In this document: piece by piece, positions 55,186 through 63,584 of the stretch | How the letters are laid out: each line of letters starts with the position of its first letter | Position numbering within the stretch: position 1 is the stretch's first letter | From: Ferroplasma acidiphilum | GTDB lineage: Archaea > Thermoplasmatota > Thermoplasmata > Thermoplasmatales > Thermoplasmataceae | Assembly (NCBI RefSeq): GCF_002078355.1 | Contig: NZ_CP015363.1 | Span: forward strand, 62,001 to 126,000 | Direction of reading: 5' to 3' | Length of the DNA stretch: 64,000 nt | The notes under the pieces: model-generated | What the model was told of the DNA's origin: nothing | Databases searched by the model: none | What the model saw: the letters and a program-made list of their open reading frames with translations, nothing else | Made by a program: the position numbers and the translations under genes

Positions 55186-55360
55186 GTATCCACAAATAGC
55201 GCCATTTATTATATTATTTTGCATGCTATATTGTACTATATCATTAATTAAGTGCTATTTTTTGACAAAATATGACTATAATAATTTTATAAAAACTGTT
55301 TCATATTTGTTATCTAACAAATGGTAAGAAAAAATGAAAATCTTTAATAATTAGGTGGTT

Positions 55361-56005
55361 ATGTTTGTTCGATGTTGCATGCAAATATTATACTCATTTA
55401 AATACGAAAATTGTTTTGCTTCAAAACTTATAAATGACTTTAAGATCAGAATCAAAATAGTTGAGCAGGAATTTCGCGACAAATATATCTATGAAACATT
55501 ATCATTATATTCAGAATCTGAAGATATTCTCAAAAAAACAATTGATTACCTTGAAAACTATAAACATTCAGAAGATGTGACTATCGTAGAGAAAGGCGCC
55601 AATTTTGTAACGCTTAACGTTGTTGCTAAAAGCTGCCCGCTTGTCGAAGTTATGAAGAAAAAGTTAATGAATTCAGATAGTAAAATTAAACTTGAACGGA
55701 TAGACTACTCCGGCAACCTATTCTGGGAATTAAATGTTAGCAATTACAATAAAATCAGGCATATTGACGATACCTTAAGGGAAATATACGATATAAAAGA
55801 TAGTAATATAAAGACCTTCAATGGTAGGCGTATAAGCATTAAATCGGAGTATATTTTAAAAGAAGCATTCGAAAGGGGATATTTTGATGTTCCGAAAAAG
55901 ATAGGATTAAAAGAGTTGTCATCTACGCTTGATATCCCACCAACTACGCTTGATTTATTATTAAGAAGGCAGTTAAGGCAGGTTATACAACAAACAATAA
56001 AATAA
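55361..56005 (+). CDS. Bat-type HTH-10 transcriptional regulator
   Basis: About 214 residues. The C-terminal 60 residues match the bacterio-opsin activator HTH (HTH-10): LKEAFERGYFDVPKKIGLKELSSTLDIPPTTLDLLLRRQLRQV. The N-terminal part has a Cys at ENCFAS and one at KSCPLVEV and may sense a redox or metal signal. The start is not certain (ATG 55361 or 55379, GTG 55355). It converges on ctaA with 2 bp between the stops and could regulate that cluster. Confidence 0.8.
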   Translation: MFVRCCMQILYSFKYENCFASKLINDFKIRIKIVEQEFRDKYIYETLSLYSESEDILKKTIDYLENYKHSEDVTIVEKGANFVTLNVVAKSCPLVEVMKKKLMNSDSKIKLERIDYSGNLFWELNVSNYNKIRHIDDTLREIYDIKDSNIKTFNGRRISIKSEYILKEAFERGYFDVPKKIGLKELSSTLDIPPTTLDLLLRRQLRQVIQQTIK

Positions 56006-56007
56006 AT

Positions 56008-56784
56008 TTATTTAAAAATACTTAGCTGGAATACTATTGAAAGAACAATCAATATTGTAAAAAACTGATGCATAGGAATTATAAATCCCGGCCTCGATGC
56101 TGATTTGTTTACCGATATGAAAACAATTATTCCCACTATAATCTGTACTCCTATTATTATTAAAGCAACGTTGTAAGTGAAGAAGAATAATATCAGGGTA
56201 AATAGGAATAACAATACCGCCAGCCCGTGTATAGTCCATATCCATTGTGCCCTTGTTTTAGGTATTTTGAAATACCCGATTGCTTTTTGATATCCACGCT
56301 CGCCTGTTGTCATTCCCCCCATGTAAATTACTGCAAAGAAAAAGTATAATGGAATGTTATGGATCACAAGATCCAGCACATTTCCAGCTACAGGATATAT
56401 TATCAACAGGTAAGTTAATGCTGTTGAGTAGGCCAGTATGTCATGAAGGCCCTGAACAACTGATGGTGCTTTGCCAGCAAGGGTATACAATGTTGCCATC
56501 CCCAGGAGCGCTGTTAATACTACAAGAATTAGCCCTGTAATTTCCAGTGCCCCATGTATAAGCACAACCATAATCACAGCGTCAACCCCGAGCAATGTGG
56601 CCAGTATCCTATGCCATACTTCAGGGTCACCTGCCTTCGCTTTCAGAGGCATATCTTTGGTATATGGCCACTTTGTCCCGAGTGATAATCCATACCCATA
56701 TCCCTCTACAGTTCCGCCAACTATAACTATTCCAAATGCAAGAATTACCTGAAATACAAAATAATAGTATAAAATCACATTCAT
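56008..56784 (-). CDS. ctaA: Heme A synthase-like protein (CtaA/COX15 family)
   Basis: About 258 residues with some seven membrane helices. The first outer loop reads VGGTVEGYGYGLSLGTKWPY, matching the CtaA hallmark (GGxVRxTGSGLxCPDWPxC) without its cysteines. Then PEVWHRILA corresponds to ExxHR. Four conserved histidines are placed as in CtaA: His58, His114, His186 and His239. Two four-helix halves are recognisable. The enzyme makes heme A from heme O for terminal oxidases. The ATG at 56784 follows GGTGA. It lies just downstream of the iron-sulfur protein gene, in the same operon. Confidence 0.82.
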   Translation of the reverse strand: MNVILYYYFVFQVILAFGIVIVGGTVEGYGYGLSLGTKWPYTKDMPLKAKAGDPEVWHRILATLLGVDAVIMVVLIHGALEITGLILVVLTALLGMATLYTLAGKAPSVVQGLHDILAYSTALTYLLIIYPVAGNVLDLVIHNIPLYFFFAVIYMGGMTTGERGYQKAIGYFKIPKTRAQWIWTIHGLAVLLFLFTLILFFFTYNVALIIIGVQIIVGIIVFISVNKSASRPGFIIPMHQFFTILIVLSIVFQLSIFK

Positions 56785-56795
56785 TAAATTCACCT

Positions 56796-59024
56796 TTATT
56801 TTTTAAACCCCGAATTTTTCTTTACCATTACGATATCACTACTATAATCTTTATTTTTTCTCCCTGTTCCTAATCTCTCTCTAAGAAAATTTCTGACATC
56901 ATAAAAGTATATATTGTCGTATGGGCATGCTCTCTTGCAATCTCCAGCTCCAACACATTTAACACTTTTAAACGACCCTTTCTCTATAAACTGGCCAGGC
57001 AAAGTAGATATTCCAACCTCACAGGAAGTGGCACATGCCTTTGTTTCACAGGTTCTGCAAACATTTTTGTCCTTTACTTTAAGTTTGAAGAAACCCAGTA
57101 CACTGAAGAAACCAACCAGCGTACCTGTGGAGCACCACCCATACTTTCTGCATGGGCTCATACCCACAAACGGGATGGAAAAGAAGAATACATACCACAG
57201 AATATTCCATATAAAATAGGAATAAAACACGGATGGATCTATTCCATAAATGCTAAAACTAAGGCTCCCAGTTGCCGTATACATATATGAGAATAGGGAT
57301 GCCAGGATAGCCCATATCCATGCCCCACTGGCTATAAACAGTATTGAATCGGTAAAATGGCTTGATCTCATTTTGCGGCTGGGTTTTGCTTCCCAGTTAT
57401 ACCTCCCCATTGCCTGCCCGAGTGTTCCACCATACATTACTGCTGATGGGCATAAGGTTGAACAATAGGACCTCCTGCCGAAAAGGAGGGCAAGGAATGC
57501 ATATAATGCATATGAACCCAGAAGTGGTATAACAAGGTAAGGGTATAGTGCAGCCTGTGCTCCAGTATTGGCCCAGAATGGGAGTTTATTATAATATAGG
57601 GGGTTTAAAAAATTAGGCCCCACTGTCGTATAGAGAATATATGCTGTTATGGCAAAGGCCAGATTTATTTTCTTTCCTCTATCCTTTAAAACTCTCATCC
57701 GGGCTATAACAAGAGCTATCATTTCCGTTCCCATAATTATAAGAAATGTTGGTGAATCCGTTATGTAACCTATTATGTAAAGAATTTCAATAAATGTGGA
57801 TACCGGTGTAAATTTATAAACACCACCCACCATTCCATAAAACATCAAAAAATTATAAGTCCCGGTAGATGCAGGCACAAATGGTGAAACAAACTCTCTT
57901 AAAACATCATGCGCATAAAAGCCCGCCACAGATACTCCATGAAATGATGGCAATGTGTCTATTGCCCTGAAAAATGGGAGGTAATTGTACGTTGCAAAAT
58001 CCATTGAACCCGCCATAAACAATTCTGATACAAAGGATGCAACAAGCACAAAAAATATTAATCTGGCTGGTTTATTAATTATCTTTTTCCTTTTAATTAC
58101 GACATTATTCTCTGTTTTTGTCACGTTAATAGATGGCGTTTTCACAGAAAACATACTGCTAAAGTAATACCACATGCCAAACAGTATTGCCACTGCAAAG
58201 AATATCCAGGCAAACCCGAAAGGTTTCAAGATTATAGTTCCGATGAAGGTGCCGATACCCATTAAGAGATAATCAATGAATATCATCTTAATATGATACG
58301 CATCATCTTTGGGTAAAATGAGTTTGTGTTTTGCTATGAACTCAAAAAATATAATCATAAATATTATCATGATAGCCGTTTCCCCAACACCTCCTATAAA
58401 GACGAATTTATCATTACCCAGAAGCGTTGGTGCGAAAAGATCCATGGTGAATATAGATATTGCAGCATATCTGTGCATACCCTTTGGCTTGTATACAAGG
58501 AAAAGGGCAAACATTTCTATACTCATTGGAACAATGAAATATATCGTGTTTATTCCATTGCTAAGTGCGCTTACAAAATCAAATGAATAGATAGCATGAT
58601 AATAATCGAAATGTATTATAGTGGGGTTAAACAGGTAAAACAAGAACAGCCCCATCGAAACTTCATTCCATATAATTAAGCCAGTAAACGCTGTTGCATT
58701 TGCCTTTGTAAGGCCCTTTCTATCCAAACCTCCATGCATTACACCTACAAAAACTGCAACTATGGGCTGTGACATTAATATCATGCCAAACGTAAATGCC
58801 AGCCCCGTGTCCAGAAAATTGTGGACTGTGGTTATATAAAGCAGGAACGCATCCAGCATACTTGCCATCATGGCTGTGAAAATTCCTATTGCTGCGATTC
58901 TAAGAAACGATATATCATTCTTATGCTTGAGTATATATGAAAAGACAAAAATAATGTAAGTTACCATAAAAATAATTGTCATAATTCCAATCAAAAATAT
59001 CGTATCAAACATGTGGCTGTGCAT
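56796..59024 (-). CDS. Large polytopic membrane protein with NapH/NosR-like iron-sulfur domain
   Basis: A 742-residue protein with about 14-16 membrane helices. Residues 1-295 are an unfamiliar helical domain with several histidines (His2, 4, 68, 97). From about residue 500 it follows NapH/NosR/CcoG: CSTLCP (Cys521, 525) and CRKYGWC (Cys625, 631), then a soluble ferredoxin-like end with Cys656, 659, 664, 668 and Cys690, 696, 700 before Pro, enough for two [4Fe-4S] clusters. Such proteins pass electrons across the membrane. It is the first gene of an operon with ctaA (12 bp gap). It is divergent from the 512-residue membrane protein. The electron donor and acceptor are unknown. Confidence 0.75.
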   Translation of the reverse strand: MHSHMFDTIFLIGIMTIIFMVTYIIFVFSYILKHKNDISFLRIAAIGIFTAMMASMLDAFLLYITTVHNFLDTGLAFTFGMILMSQPIVAVFVGVMHGGLDRKGLTKANATAFTGLIIWNEVSMGLFLFYLFNPTIIHFDYYHAIYSFDFVSALSNGINTIYFIVPMSIEMFALFLVYKPKGMHRYAAISIFTMDLFAPTLLGNDKFVFIGGVGETAIMIIFMIIFFEFIAKHKLILPKDDAYHIKMIFIDYLLMGIGTFIGTIILKPFGFAWIFFAVAILFGMWYYFSSMFSVKTPSINVTKTENNVVIKRKKIINKPARLIFFVLVASFVSELFMAGSMDFATYNYLPFFRAIDTLPSFHGVSVAGFYAHDVLREFVSPFVPASTGTYNFLMFYGMVGGVYKFTPVSTFIEILYIIGYITDSPTFLIIMGTEMIALVIARMRVLKDRGKKINLAFAITAYILYTTVGPNFLNPLYYNKLPFWANTGAQAALYPYLVIPLLGSYALYAFLALLFGRRSYCSTLCPSAVMYGGTLGQAMGRYNWEAKPSRKMRSSHFTDSILFIASGAWIWAILASLFSYMYTATGSLSFSIYGIDPSVFYSYFIWNILWYVFFFSIPFVGMSPCRKYGWCSTGTLVGFFSVLGFFKLKVKDKNVCRTCETKACATSCEVGISTLPGQFIEKGSFKSVKCVGAGDCKRACPYDNIYFYDVRNFLRERLGTGRKNKDYSSDIVMVKKNSGFKK

Positions 59025-59105
59025 TAAGTGATTTTATTATTAATTAATTGTAGATATTATTCTATAATTAAACTTATCTTTATCAAGAAATATTCAAAGG
59101 ATAAA

Positions 59106-60644
59106 ATGAAGCGAGAAATAGTTGAAAGTCTAATAATTTCGGTTTTTACACTTTATCTGTTTATATACTCCGCGATTACGGGGGTATTTGTAGTTTATAA
59201 TACAAGATTATATCCATCAATATACCAATTTCTTGCTTTTCTATTGCCTTATGTTGTACTTCCTCTTCTGGTTTTCTTCAGAAAAAACTCGGTGATTAAC
59301 AGGATATATCTATATTTCTTATTTATAGGGCTATTTTCATTTATTGTACTCTTATTCACATACATAGTTTACCCGTTGATGGAGATAATGGTATTGCTTA
59401 CAATAGCATTTTACACAGATATTATAGACAATTTATATTATAAGGAAAATAAGCCACTATTTTACCGTGGTGCAACATTTGTGCTTATCCTATTTGTAAT
59501 GTTGCTGGTGTCCAGGTTCTTTGTCATATCTGTACCGGTTGAACCAACGAAAATAGTTGTTGATTCTATATACGCCGATTTCTCACATTCACAGGTGCCA
59601 TTCCTATTCTATTATGGCATTATAATGAGGGTAAATTATATTGACTTTACAATGGGAATCCAATCAATTATTCTCTATTTGATATTAGCAGCGCTGTTAA
59701 CCGAGAACTACTTCCTTATATTCAGTATAGTAAATATTAACGGCGGGATTTCGAGAAAAAAATCAAATGGAAGAAGAGGGGCAAGTGCAATGGTAACACC
59801 TGCAATAAGTGGTGCTGTATCTGCACTGAGTTGCCAGTGTGAAGGACTGACGGCAATATTGCCGACTATTGCTGCCGTTGTTGCCTCGGCCATTTCCACG
59901 GCATTGCTGTCAGAAAGTATATTATTGCTATTAATCAGCAACTTTATGCTTACGGTGTTTTTCAACCGGCGGGCAAGAGTTAAACTCATATCACACATTA
60001 AAGATCTTAGAAATAGTAATTATTTCCCTCTCCTTGCAATATTTTTTGTTATGTTAATTCCAATCATGGAGGTAATAGGAATATTCTATCACCTTCAATT
60101 AACTTCGTTAACATTCTTTTATGGAGTTAACATACTGATGTTTGTATCAGGTATATTTTTGATGTATGCTATTACAAAGATCGGGATGAAGCCATTTATC
60201 AAGACCGTTAAGATAAAGGCAATACTTGCGGCTATTGCCTCTATTTTGATGTTTATCTGGTTTATACCCCCGATAGCATATTTTGCATATACAAATTATT
60301 ATTACTATTTTCTCATGAATATAATGGGTGTAATTTCAGGGCTTTTAACCTATCTGGTGTACTTTAACATAGCTAAATTTAAGGCCGCTTATATAGAGTT
60401 TAACTCTATGATGTTCAGTATGACTGCTCTTGTACTTTTCTACATATCCATAATATCACTTGATGATCTTTTCCCATTTTATGGTATAAAGCAACAGTTG
60501 TATTTTTCCGCTATCCTATGGGGAATAACACTTCCATTTATGTGGTTGAGTACAATTGAAACAATGTACAGGCATTCTATAGTTGATACACCAATATTGC
60601 AAAAAGCCCACCACCAGGGAAAAGCAATACATGCCGGTAAATAA
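59106..60644 (+). CDS. Multi-pass membrane protein with SCQC motif, unknown function
   Basis: About 512 residues and 12-14 membrane helices. A conserved-looking segment, SNGRRGASAMVTPAISGAVSALSC, then QCEG (Cys243 and Cys245), lies near the middle, next to a basic loop. The CxC in a glycine/serine-rich setting suggests a metal or redox site. No family is recognised. The ATG at 59106 has AAAGGA upstream; a longer frame from 59028 adds 26 residues that do not look natural. It ends in a His-rich tail (AHHQGKAIHAGK). It is divergent from the iron-sulfur protein and probably shares its promoter region. Confidence 0.7.
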   Translation: MKREIVESLIISVFTLYLFIYSAITGVFVVYNTRLYPSIYQFLAFLLPYVVLPLLVFFRKNSVINRIYLYFLFIGLFSFIVLLFTYIVYPLMEIMVLLTIAFYTDIIDNLYYKENKPLFYRGATFVLILFVMLLVSRFFVISVPVEPTKIVVDSIYADFSHSQVPFLFYYGIIMRVNYIDFTMGIQSIILYLILAALLTENYFLIFSIVNINGGISRKKSNGRRGASAMVTPAISGAVSALSCQCEGLTAILPTIAAVVASAISTALLSESILLLLISNFMLTVFFNRRARVKLISHIKDLRNSNYFPLLAIFFVMLIPIMEVIGIFYHLQLTSLTFFYGVNILMFVSGIFLMYAITKIGMKPFIKTVKIKAILAAIASILMFIWFIPPIAYFAYTNYYYYFLMNIMGVISGLLTYLVYFNIAKFKAAYIEFNSMMFSMTALVLFYISIISLDDLFPFYGIKQQLYFSAILWGITLPFMWLSTIETMYRHSIVDTPILQKAHHQGKAIHAGK

Positions 60645-60748
60645 TTGTAATATTTTTAAAATTAACTAATTTTTATAAAATCATAATATTCCAAGAGATA
60701 ATCAAAAAGATTTAAAAAGAGTTATTAAAATATAAAGGTAACTTGAAT

Positions 60749-60904
60749 TTATTTCCTTAAAATAAATTCTTTTACGAAAATAGTCGCACCTATCGTAATC
60801 GCAGCACACATTCCCATTATAACCTCTAAAAAGAAAGTCTCGGTATTGGGATTATAAGCTGCCGGATGAAGAGTAATCATCGCTGTTAATATATCTGGTA
60901 TCAT
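60749..60904 (-). CDS. Small single-pass membrane protein (51 aa)
   Basis: A complete 51-residue frame: a short outer part with LHPAAYNPNTE, then one membrane helix (FFLEVIMGMCAAITIGATIF) and a basic end (VKEFILRK). Composition and codon use look coding. The TATA box TTTATATG (60923-60930) stands about 23 bp before the ATG, as for a leaderless gene. Size and place next to a heme A synthase cluster fit a small subunit of a respiratory complex, but this is inferred. It converges on the 512-residue membrane protein gene. Confidence 0.6.
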   Translation of the reverse strand: MIPDILTAMITLHPAAYNPNTETFFLEVIMGMCAAITIGATIFVKEFILRK

Positions 60905-62828: not shown

Positions 62829-63584
62829 TCACCTGACATCTTTGATAGTTGCTTCCAAACCTTCCATGCCCGTATTTATTCCATAATCATGAATATTCTG
62901 ATTTACATCTTGTAGTACTTTTTCTGGTGTGGCATTCCCATAATCAGGCTTAACTATATATCCATTCAAAAGGTATGCTCCGGATGGTCCAGTAATAAGG
63001 GTAACTGAGTTTATATGTGGTATACTGCTGATATTATCACTAGGCATACATGGCCCATTAACTATTGCCTCTGTAGTATATCCTTTTATTACGCTGTATA
63101 CAGATGGAGGAACATCTGCCTTTAAAGCTTTTAAGCCAGCTTCAGGTGTAGTATTCTTTGATAAATTTTCTCCATAAAGATATACTGGAACTATGATGGT
63201 GTTTCTATGATCATATGTAACGCTATACGTATAGCTGGTATTAAAGATAAGCCCGGGAGTATTATTGTACTGGTAACCACTCATGGATTGAGTTTCAATG
63301 AATTTCCCAGTCATATTAAACCCGGTACTATTAAGGAAATCATACACGGCCCATGAACCTGCGTCCCCTGTAGGGCTTCCATCCCAGGTAATATAGTAAA
63401 CAAACGTGCTGGTATTATCTTTAATCAGGTCGCTGTCTGAAACTTTACAATATTGTTCTAGTTCTATAGTTTCGTCATGAGCATCATAATGTTCCGCCCC
63501 ATAAATAGCAAGAAATGCTATTACAACAAAAAATACGATAAAAAATGCCAGTAATTTTCTGTTATTTTTTCTCTCTTCGGTCAT
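62829..63584 (-). CDS. Membrane-anchored extracytoplasmic protein, possibly DUF929-like
   Basis: A 251-residue protein. A basic start is followed by one membrane helix (about 10-29), then an outer domain with many N-x-S/T sites. The part YYITWDGSPTGDAGSWAVYDFLNSTG has the spacing of the DUF929 thioredoxin-like start (xGAxxCPyCAaeSWAlyxAL), but the CxxC is absent. The relation to DUF929 is therefore weak. Cys46 and Cys183 might form a disulfide. Confidence 0.6.
   Translation of the reverse strand: MTEERKNNRKLLAFFIVFFVVIAFLAIYGAEHYDAHDETIELEQYCKVSDSDLIKDNTSTFVYYITWDGSPTGDAGSWAVYDFLNSTGFNMTGKFIETQSMSGYQYNNTPGLIFNTSYTYSVTYDHRNTIIVPVYLYGENLSKNTTPEAGLKALKADVPPSVYSVIKGYTTEAIVNGPCMPSDNISSIPHINSVTLITGPSGAYLLNGYIVKPDYGNATPEKVLQDVNQNIHDYGINTGMEGLEATIKDVR

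Follow-up and report, generated by a model that had tools for sequence, protein, structure and literature searches.

A conserved iron-sulfur and CQCE membrane protein pair beside the Ferroplasma oxidase locus: a candidate copper-site maturation module

What does a membrane iron-sulfur (Fe-S) protein do when its gene lies between one for a heme A synthase-like protein and a divergent gene for a large membrane protein? The question is raised by four genes at positions 56,008 to 60,904 of a Ferroplasma acidiphilum window, which is the 64,000-nucleotide stretch covering bases 62001-126000 of contig NZ_CP015363.1, a single-contig genome of 1,826,943 bp. An earlier note, made from the letters of the window, had read these genes as an undescribed redox cluster in which the Fe-S protein could feed electrons to heme A synthase. 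All four open reading frames (ORFs) are real, including one of only 51 residues. The cluster does not stand free; it flanks the sulfocyanin/heme-copper oxidase locus of Ferroplasma on the left, because the right end of the window stops ~30 bp short of coxAC, and the genes that follow outside it are, in order, a COX1-COX3 fusion (genome positions 126030-128537), a 73-aa ORF, sulfocyanin, COX2 and CtaB. We propose, at a probability of about one half, that the Fe-S protein and the divergent membrane protein, called here the CQCE protein after its conserved motif, act together as a module that matures copper sites outside the cytoplasm, above all CuA and CuB of the adjacent heme-copper oxidase. 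The pair is a concrete, testable candidate for the loading of copper into cytochrome oxidases and blue-copper proteins of archaea at pH 0-2, and no convincing match to the usual bacterial copper factors was seen in the sampled genomes. Two protein families that have neither a Pfam model nor a known fold are defined in the process, namely the Met/Glu membrane domain of the Fe-S protein and the CQCE protein.

Parts of this locus have been published. It is the same sulfocyanin/coxAC cluster that is described in Ferroplasma and Acidiplasma (PMC5473848, PMC12524180); the former lists the 126,000-156,681 part of the locus as a genomic island, the latter draws 'Fd' and 'COX15' adjoining the sulfocyanin cluster, and a NapH-superfamily polyferredoxin in an oxidase cluster is mentioned in PMC11349054. 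The available portions of PMC5473848 and PMC12524180 give no role to 'Fd' or to the hypothetical protein, and the portions of the literature on the locus that were available make no mention of the Met/Glu domain and its conservation, the CQCE family, the pairing of the two proteins or their independence of CtaA. The earlier label of an undescribed cluster does not hold for 'Fd'/'COX15', the NapH polyferredoxin or type 0 CtaA, which were already in print in those sources and in PMC8239418.

Distribution and conserved features of the pair

The gene pairing, linkage, distribution and invariant residues reported in this section are direct observations. The Fe-S protein (742 aa) is encoded at 56796..59024 on the minus strand, 2-11 bp from the ctaA gene, with which it is probably co-transcribed in an operon, as the earlier note had it. 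The CQCE protein (512 aa) is encoded at 59106..60644 on the plus strand; the longest ORF begins with a GTG at 59028, and alignment of homologs places the conserved start at the ATG at 59106. The divergence of the two genes, also recognized previously, leaves an unstranded intergenic region of 81 bp (59025..59105), and the same layout is found in Ferroplasma, Acidiplasma and Picrophilus-like genomes with 79-111 bp between the aligned ends.

A total of 101 relatives was surveyed, 65 with COX1 and 36 without, and genes were considered linked at a distance of up to 15 kb. The CQCE family was present in 65/65 COX1 genomes and in 7/36 COX1-less genomes (~72 in total), the latter being four Thermoplasma-genus genomes, one genome with a contig-edge COX1 fragment and two partial metagenome-assembled genomes (MAGs). 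The Fe-S protein or its paralog was present in 62/65 COX1 genomes and 6/36 others (~68 in total). Linkage was seen between Fe-S and CQCE in 33 genomes, between Fe-S and COX1 in 27, and between CQCE and COX1 in 44, and Fisher p-values of 2e-16 and 5e-19 were obtained, which are inflated by relatedness. A second Fe-S paralog, usually located away from the oxidase, has a CQCE paralog within 1.0-1.3 kb in three genomes. A conserved pair made up of a putative reductase with its Met-rich domain and the CQCE protein accompanies nearly every heme-copper oxidase surveyed in this order, whose acidophilic members cycle iron and metals, and these counts and the tight linkage support the oxidase-assembly role that the earlier note had offered as a fall-back.

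The Fe-S protein is composed of an eight-helix N-domain (residues ~1-345; 57990..59024, minus strand), linker helices (~346-500) and a NapH/MauN-like C-domain (~500-710). Its cysteine region (56925..57465, minus strand) comprises a CxxxCP motif (C521/C525), a CxxxxxC motif (C625/C631) and a ferredoxin-like end with seven Cys (656, 659, 664, 668, 690, 696 and 700), arranged as C656-x2-C-x4-C-x3-C668 and C690-x5-C-x3-C700-P. The paired membrane motifs and the seven-Cys end had been pointed out before, and all 11 Cys prove invariant in 29/29 homologs and four paralogs, with no other Cys in 26/29. The second ferredoxin motif is one Cys short, a pattern that would be compatible with a [3Fe-4S] cluster or with one that has another kind of ligand.

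The N-domain is an undescribed eight-helix domain, and no Pfam match was obtained over the N-terminal 345 residues. Among its 20 near-invariant positions are 11 Met, 4 Glu and 1 Asn (M52, M53, M56, M81, M84, N120, E121, M124, M167, E170, M171, M219, M223, E228, M284 and E334; hypergeometric Met enrichment, 1e-9), and these Met/Glu positions are for the most part retained in the second paralog family (35-40% identity) and where the domain stands alone. The domain had been called new and histidine-bearing; its novelty stands, and the emphasis on histidine does not, as none of its histidines is conserved and Met/Glu residues are near-invariant instead. Heme binding by N-domain histidines was rejected for the same reason. 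In an AlphaFold2 (AF2) model, the predicted local distance difference test score (pLDDT) was 67 for the whole Fe-S protein and mostly 70-94 in the N-domain. A Foldseek search of the whole model against PDB gave no fold match, and a PDB sequence search returned generic ferredoxins only. At loci L088, L091, L092 and L094, and also at L093, which lie apart from the oxidase, the second Fe-S paralog adjoins a separately encoded copy of the Met/Glu domain; a gene for an ArsB arsenite pump lies alongside at L088.

In the CQCE protein, C243-Q-C245-E246 is found in 24/24 homologs (20-79% identity to the window protein), 22 of which have no other Cys, and E200-N201 is conserved as well. The AF2 model (pLDDT 78) places the motif inside helix 230-251, after a low-confidence K/R-rich loop. 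No match was found in Pfam, among PDB sequences or, by Foldseek of the AF2 model, among PDB folds. A sample of 243 genomes of the phylum contained the CQCE protein only in its own family of the order (26 genomes), and the closer survey of relatives revealed it in one sister family (f3) as well.

Comparison with known systems and the case for copper

NapH/MauN proteins are defined by two CxxxCP motifs and two [4Fe-4S] motifs with eight Cys. Approximately 210 C-terminal residues of the Fe-S protein align with nearly the whole NCBIfam model of this quinol dehydrogenase ferredoxin-type subunit (TIGR02163), which matches 29/29 members over residues ~500-706 (best E 7.4e-12; 4.5e-07 for the window protein), and the likeness includes membrane helices, the CxxxCP motif and a two-motif ferredoxin end. 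However, the window protein scores 29.7 bits, far below the curated cut-off of 213, and it differs in its extra 500-residue membrane part and in the absence of nap genes nearby. With one CxxxCP, a CxxxxxC as the second membrane motif and 7 rather than 8 ferredoxin Cys, it falls outside the NapH definition. Its neighbors are oxidase, CtaB, CQCE, CtaA and Rieske/cytochrome b genes, not those for NapG and nitrate reductase or mau genes.

CcoG/RdxA/FixG proteins are likewise membrane proteins with two ferredoxin-type Cys motifs that are encoded in a heme-copper oxidase cluster, and Cu(II) reduction, which is proposed here for the Fe-S protein, would be a further likeness (PMC7558416). The presence of the Fe-S gene within 15 kb of COX1 in 27 genomes is a CcoG-like trait, whereas its association with A/B-type rather than cbb3 oxidases, its fused Met/Glu domain and its CQCE partner in place of CcoHIS are not. 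The CcoG model was absent from the NCBIfam matches of the Fe-S protein at E<=1, and no FixG-type Pfam match was found. The periplasmic flavin domain of NosR was not detected either, there being no FMN_bind match in the Fe-S protein, whose N-domain consists of membrane helices. Because it thus falls outside all three families, we set the Fe-S protein apart from NapH, CcoG and NosR, and propose that it may work like a CcoG-type factor without being a member of that family. The N-domain resembles the copper transporters CcoA and CTR in having Met motifs in helices (M167-x3-M171 and M219-x3-M223; compare MxxxM of CcoA), but its Met residues occur with invariant Glu/Asn and an Fe-S reductase-like domain is joined to it; searches of Pfam and of PDB sequences and folds gave the Fe-S protein no match to CTR or CcoA.

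The copper role, the direction of electron flow, the topology and the transfer steps of the proposed mechanism are what we infer from these features. The NapH-like C-domain, on the cytoplasmic side, would take electrons from a cytoplasmic donor or quinol and pass them through the Fe-S clusters of the seven-Cys ferredoxin part and the CxxxCP/CxxxxxC cysteines at the membrane border; these would convert Cu(II) to Cu(I), reduce a thiol partner, or do both. Cu(I) may be held or conducted by the membrane domain with its Met/Glu lining, which is proposed because Met is a Cu(I) ligand that works even at very low external pH. The CQCE protein could then receive metal or electrons and hand them to oxidase or cupredoxin sites, and CtaA would be an added neighbor only in lineages with a heme A oxidase. 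More tentatively, and less probably than the maturation role itself, the two proteins might constitute a previously unrecognized copper-insertion system of Thermoplasmatales for oxidases and cupredoxins that replaces Sco, Cox11 and PCuAC. Equally tentative is the composition of such a system, which would pair a CQCE transfer protein with a cupric (or thiol) reductase of the Fe-S type that carries a fused Met/Glu domain for Cu(I).

Evidence for copper-site maturation is provided by the co-occurrence and linkage with COX1, the Met/Glu conservation, the CQC cysteines as the sole invariant ones of the CQCE protein, an operon of Thermoplasma, the lack of convincing matches to known copper factors in 14 sampled genomes, and the precedent of CcoG and CcoA. 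Copper factors were sought as Pfam families in 14 genomes, with Cox11 (PF04442) and PCuAC (PF04314) each found in 0/14, Caa3_CtaG (PF09678) in 0/14 over the cut-off, and Sco (PF02630) as one marginal match of a kind possibly reflecting thioredoxin-like proteins. As to precedent, CcoG is a two-cluster Fe-S membrane protein and cupric reductase whose gene lies beside that of the cbb3 oxidase (PMC7558416), and the copper importer CcoA uses MxxxM/HxxxM motifs (PMC7558416, PMC5829832). According to PMC7558416, no Cu(II)-reducing activity other than that shown by Archaeoglobus CopZ is known in archaea.

Neither COX1 nor CtaA is present in Thermoplasma, whose CQCE and Fe-S genes share an operon with the gene of a secreted protein (L081:7069-7785), which they immediately follow. 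The end of this protein reads ...GTY.WQC..PCG...M.G.V.V with a His upstream, and the conserved H, CxxxCG and M are close to the CuA/cupredoxin ligand pattern; scores against cupredoxin-like profiles are marginal (E 0.04-0.07; hhalign, 1.7%). The designation of this companion as a proven CuA protein was dropped because of these marginal profiles, and it is regarded here, from its motif, as probably CuA/cupredoxin-like. Since Thermoplasma keeps the pair with this cupredoxin-like gene and without COX1 or CtaA, its occurrence apparently tracks copper proteins outside the cytoplasm and not heme A. The secreted protein itself looks like a CuA/cupredoxin relic in a genome that lacks a heme-copper oxidase.

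Several points weigh against a copper role. The linkage statistics are inflated by shared ancestry, and joint absences can also arise from missing contigs; two genomes inside oxidase-bearing genera (G003 and G053) lack all of these genes at once, and a missing contig would look alike. The cupredoxin assignment of the Thermoplasma companion is by motif, with marginal profiles. In one Thermoplasma genome, both genes carry frameshifts, the Fe-S gene in its middle (L082:6661-8576) and the CQCE gene near its start (L082:8566-10030), but the cupredoxin-like gene is undamaged; in related Thermoplasma genomes, Fe-S and CQCE are intact too. The likeness of the C-domain is to NapH, a quinol dehydrogenase, and no match to the CcoG model was obtained. 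Neither AF2 model, that of the Fe-S protein or that of the CQCE protein, matches a known fold, and the copper chemistry of the pair is itself deduced.

Alternative explanations

The strongest rival is that the Fe-S protein is a respiratory electron-transfer subunit, a NapH/NosR-like quinol:acceptor or ferredoxin:quinone oxidoreductase associated with the oxidase or with the Rieske/cytochrome b complex, and that the CQCE protein is its membrane partner. This is possible, at odds clearly below those of copper-site maturation. The NapH/MauN likeness over residues 500-706 in 29/29 members fits such a subunit, as does the proximity to Rieske/cytochrome b genes in Thermoplasma (~2 kb from the module) and in some f3 MAGs, but conservation in the N-domain is highest at Met and Glu, which are not typical ligands of quinone or heme, and no His is conserved for heme b. 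The constant partner is the CQCE protein, and the usual neighbor is COX1 rather than Rieske/cytochrome b.

A thiol-redox module, in which the Fe-S protein would drive electrons across the membrane to the CQC pair and so keep the Cys of CuA/cupredoxin sites reduced, is rather unlikely. Such a module would be a functional analog of DsbD/CcdA plus Sco/TlpA. CQC holds the only invariant Cys of its protein and lies inside a predicted helix, CuA-type targets carry a CxxxC pair, and no convincing Sco was found in the 14 genomes sampled; yet the conserved Met/Glu set would be left unexplained, CxC is an unusual redox pair, and there is no established thioredoxin-fold partner.

The view that heme A synthase receives its electrons from the Fe-S protein is tempting, since the two genes are probably co-transcribed in Ferroplasma, Acidiplasma and Picrophilus-like genomes, but it is very improbable. 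The Fe-S protein occurs in ~68/101 relatives, CtaA in 13/101. Genomes with the Fe-S protein and no CtaA had been named beforehand as grounds for refutation, and at least 27 such genomes were found, including at least 10 that are nearly complete, among them four Thermoplasma-genus genomes without a heme-copper oxidase. CtaA is also missing from most COX1 genomes, and the link to heme A synthesis is corrected here. An iron-oxidation-specific electron carrier, suggested by the adjacent sulfocyanin in Ferroplasma and by the earlier note, is the least probable of all and was rejected as the sole role on distribution, as the pair occurs in the non-iron-oxidizers Thermoplasma and I-plasma and in plastocyanin-type clusters, and PMC12524180 reports a similar cluster in Picrophilus, which does not oxidize iron.

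The CtaA-like protein and flanking genes

The gene adjoining that of the Fe-S protein (56008..56793, minus strand; 261 aa, no Cys) fits a known kind, the divergent cysteine-free 'type 0' CtaA (heme A synthase), which has been described in Thermoplasmatales (Degli Esposti et al. 2021, PMC8239418). The common features are the lack of Cys pairs, a compact size, the essential E/H/R set, an acidophilic host and oxidase neighbors; no differences were noted. The window protein has the E58-x-x-H61-R62 motif and the four heme-ligand His (H117, H189 and H242 in addition to H61), with no Cys pairs in its loops. These residues are invariant, and Cys are absent, in 12/12 aligned homologs. The call draws on this conservation and on a home-made profile of the CtaA N-half, with which 12/12 members outscored 381 background ORFs and 500 shuffled sequences (E 1.7e-4 to 3.5e-3) with the alignment in the right register (GGTV..G.S..WP). 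Pfam PF02628 (COX15-CtaA; cut-off 29.9) matched neither the window protein nor the 12 aligned family members, with nothing above the cut-off in the genome of the window or its relatives, and hhalign of the family against 16 CtaA proteins of other Thermoplasmatota, with shallow profiles, gave a probability of 1.5%. A PDB sequence search of the family gave no match.

The CtaA-like family was found in the above 13 relatives, plus one marginal match. It co-occurs with the A-family oxidase, being confined to genomes with a COX1-COX3 fusion of 829-861 aa, apart from two others that have truncated COX1 contigs; no CtaA-like gene was found where COX1 is 560-600 aa. PMC8239418 likewise gives Cuniculiplasmataceae as having COX1 and no CtaA. 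At three loci of other Thermoplasmatota (L175, L178 and L179), half-size CtaA domains are apparently fused to a CtaB-like prenyltransferase region.

The 51-aa ORF (60749..60904, minus strand) encodes a predicted single-helix protein. Homologs were found in 16 loci, some from the same genomes (E 4e-8 to 1e-31), and it is a true small gene that is conserved across Ferroplasma, Acidiplasma-like and Picrophilus-like loci. On the other side of the CtaA gene lies one for an HTH_10 regulator (55355..56005, plus strand; Pfam PF04967, E 3.2e-11), a relative of which is encoded beside the Fe-S gene in Thermoplasma (L081:11925-12554; phmmer, 9e-8). Related HTH_10 (Bat-type) regulators thus flank the module in both Ferroplasma and Thermoplasma, and are candidate regulators responding to copper or oxygen. 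A DUF929 (PF06053) protein that carries a membrane anchor at its N-terminus is encoded at 62829-63584 on the minus strand, in the interval from the CQCE gene to COX1. In a comparison of four syntenic loci (Ferroplasma, Acidiplasma-like and Picrophilus-like), a homolog holds the corresponding position, and this protein could be another oxidase-linked factor.

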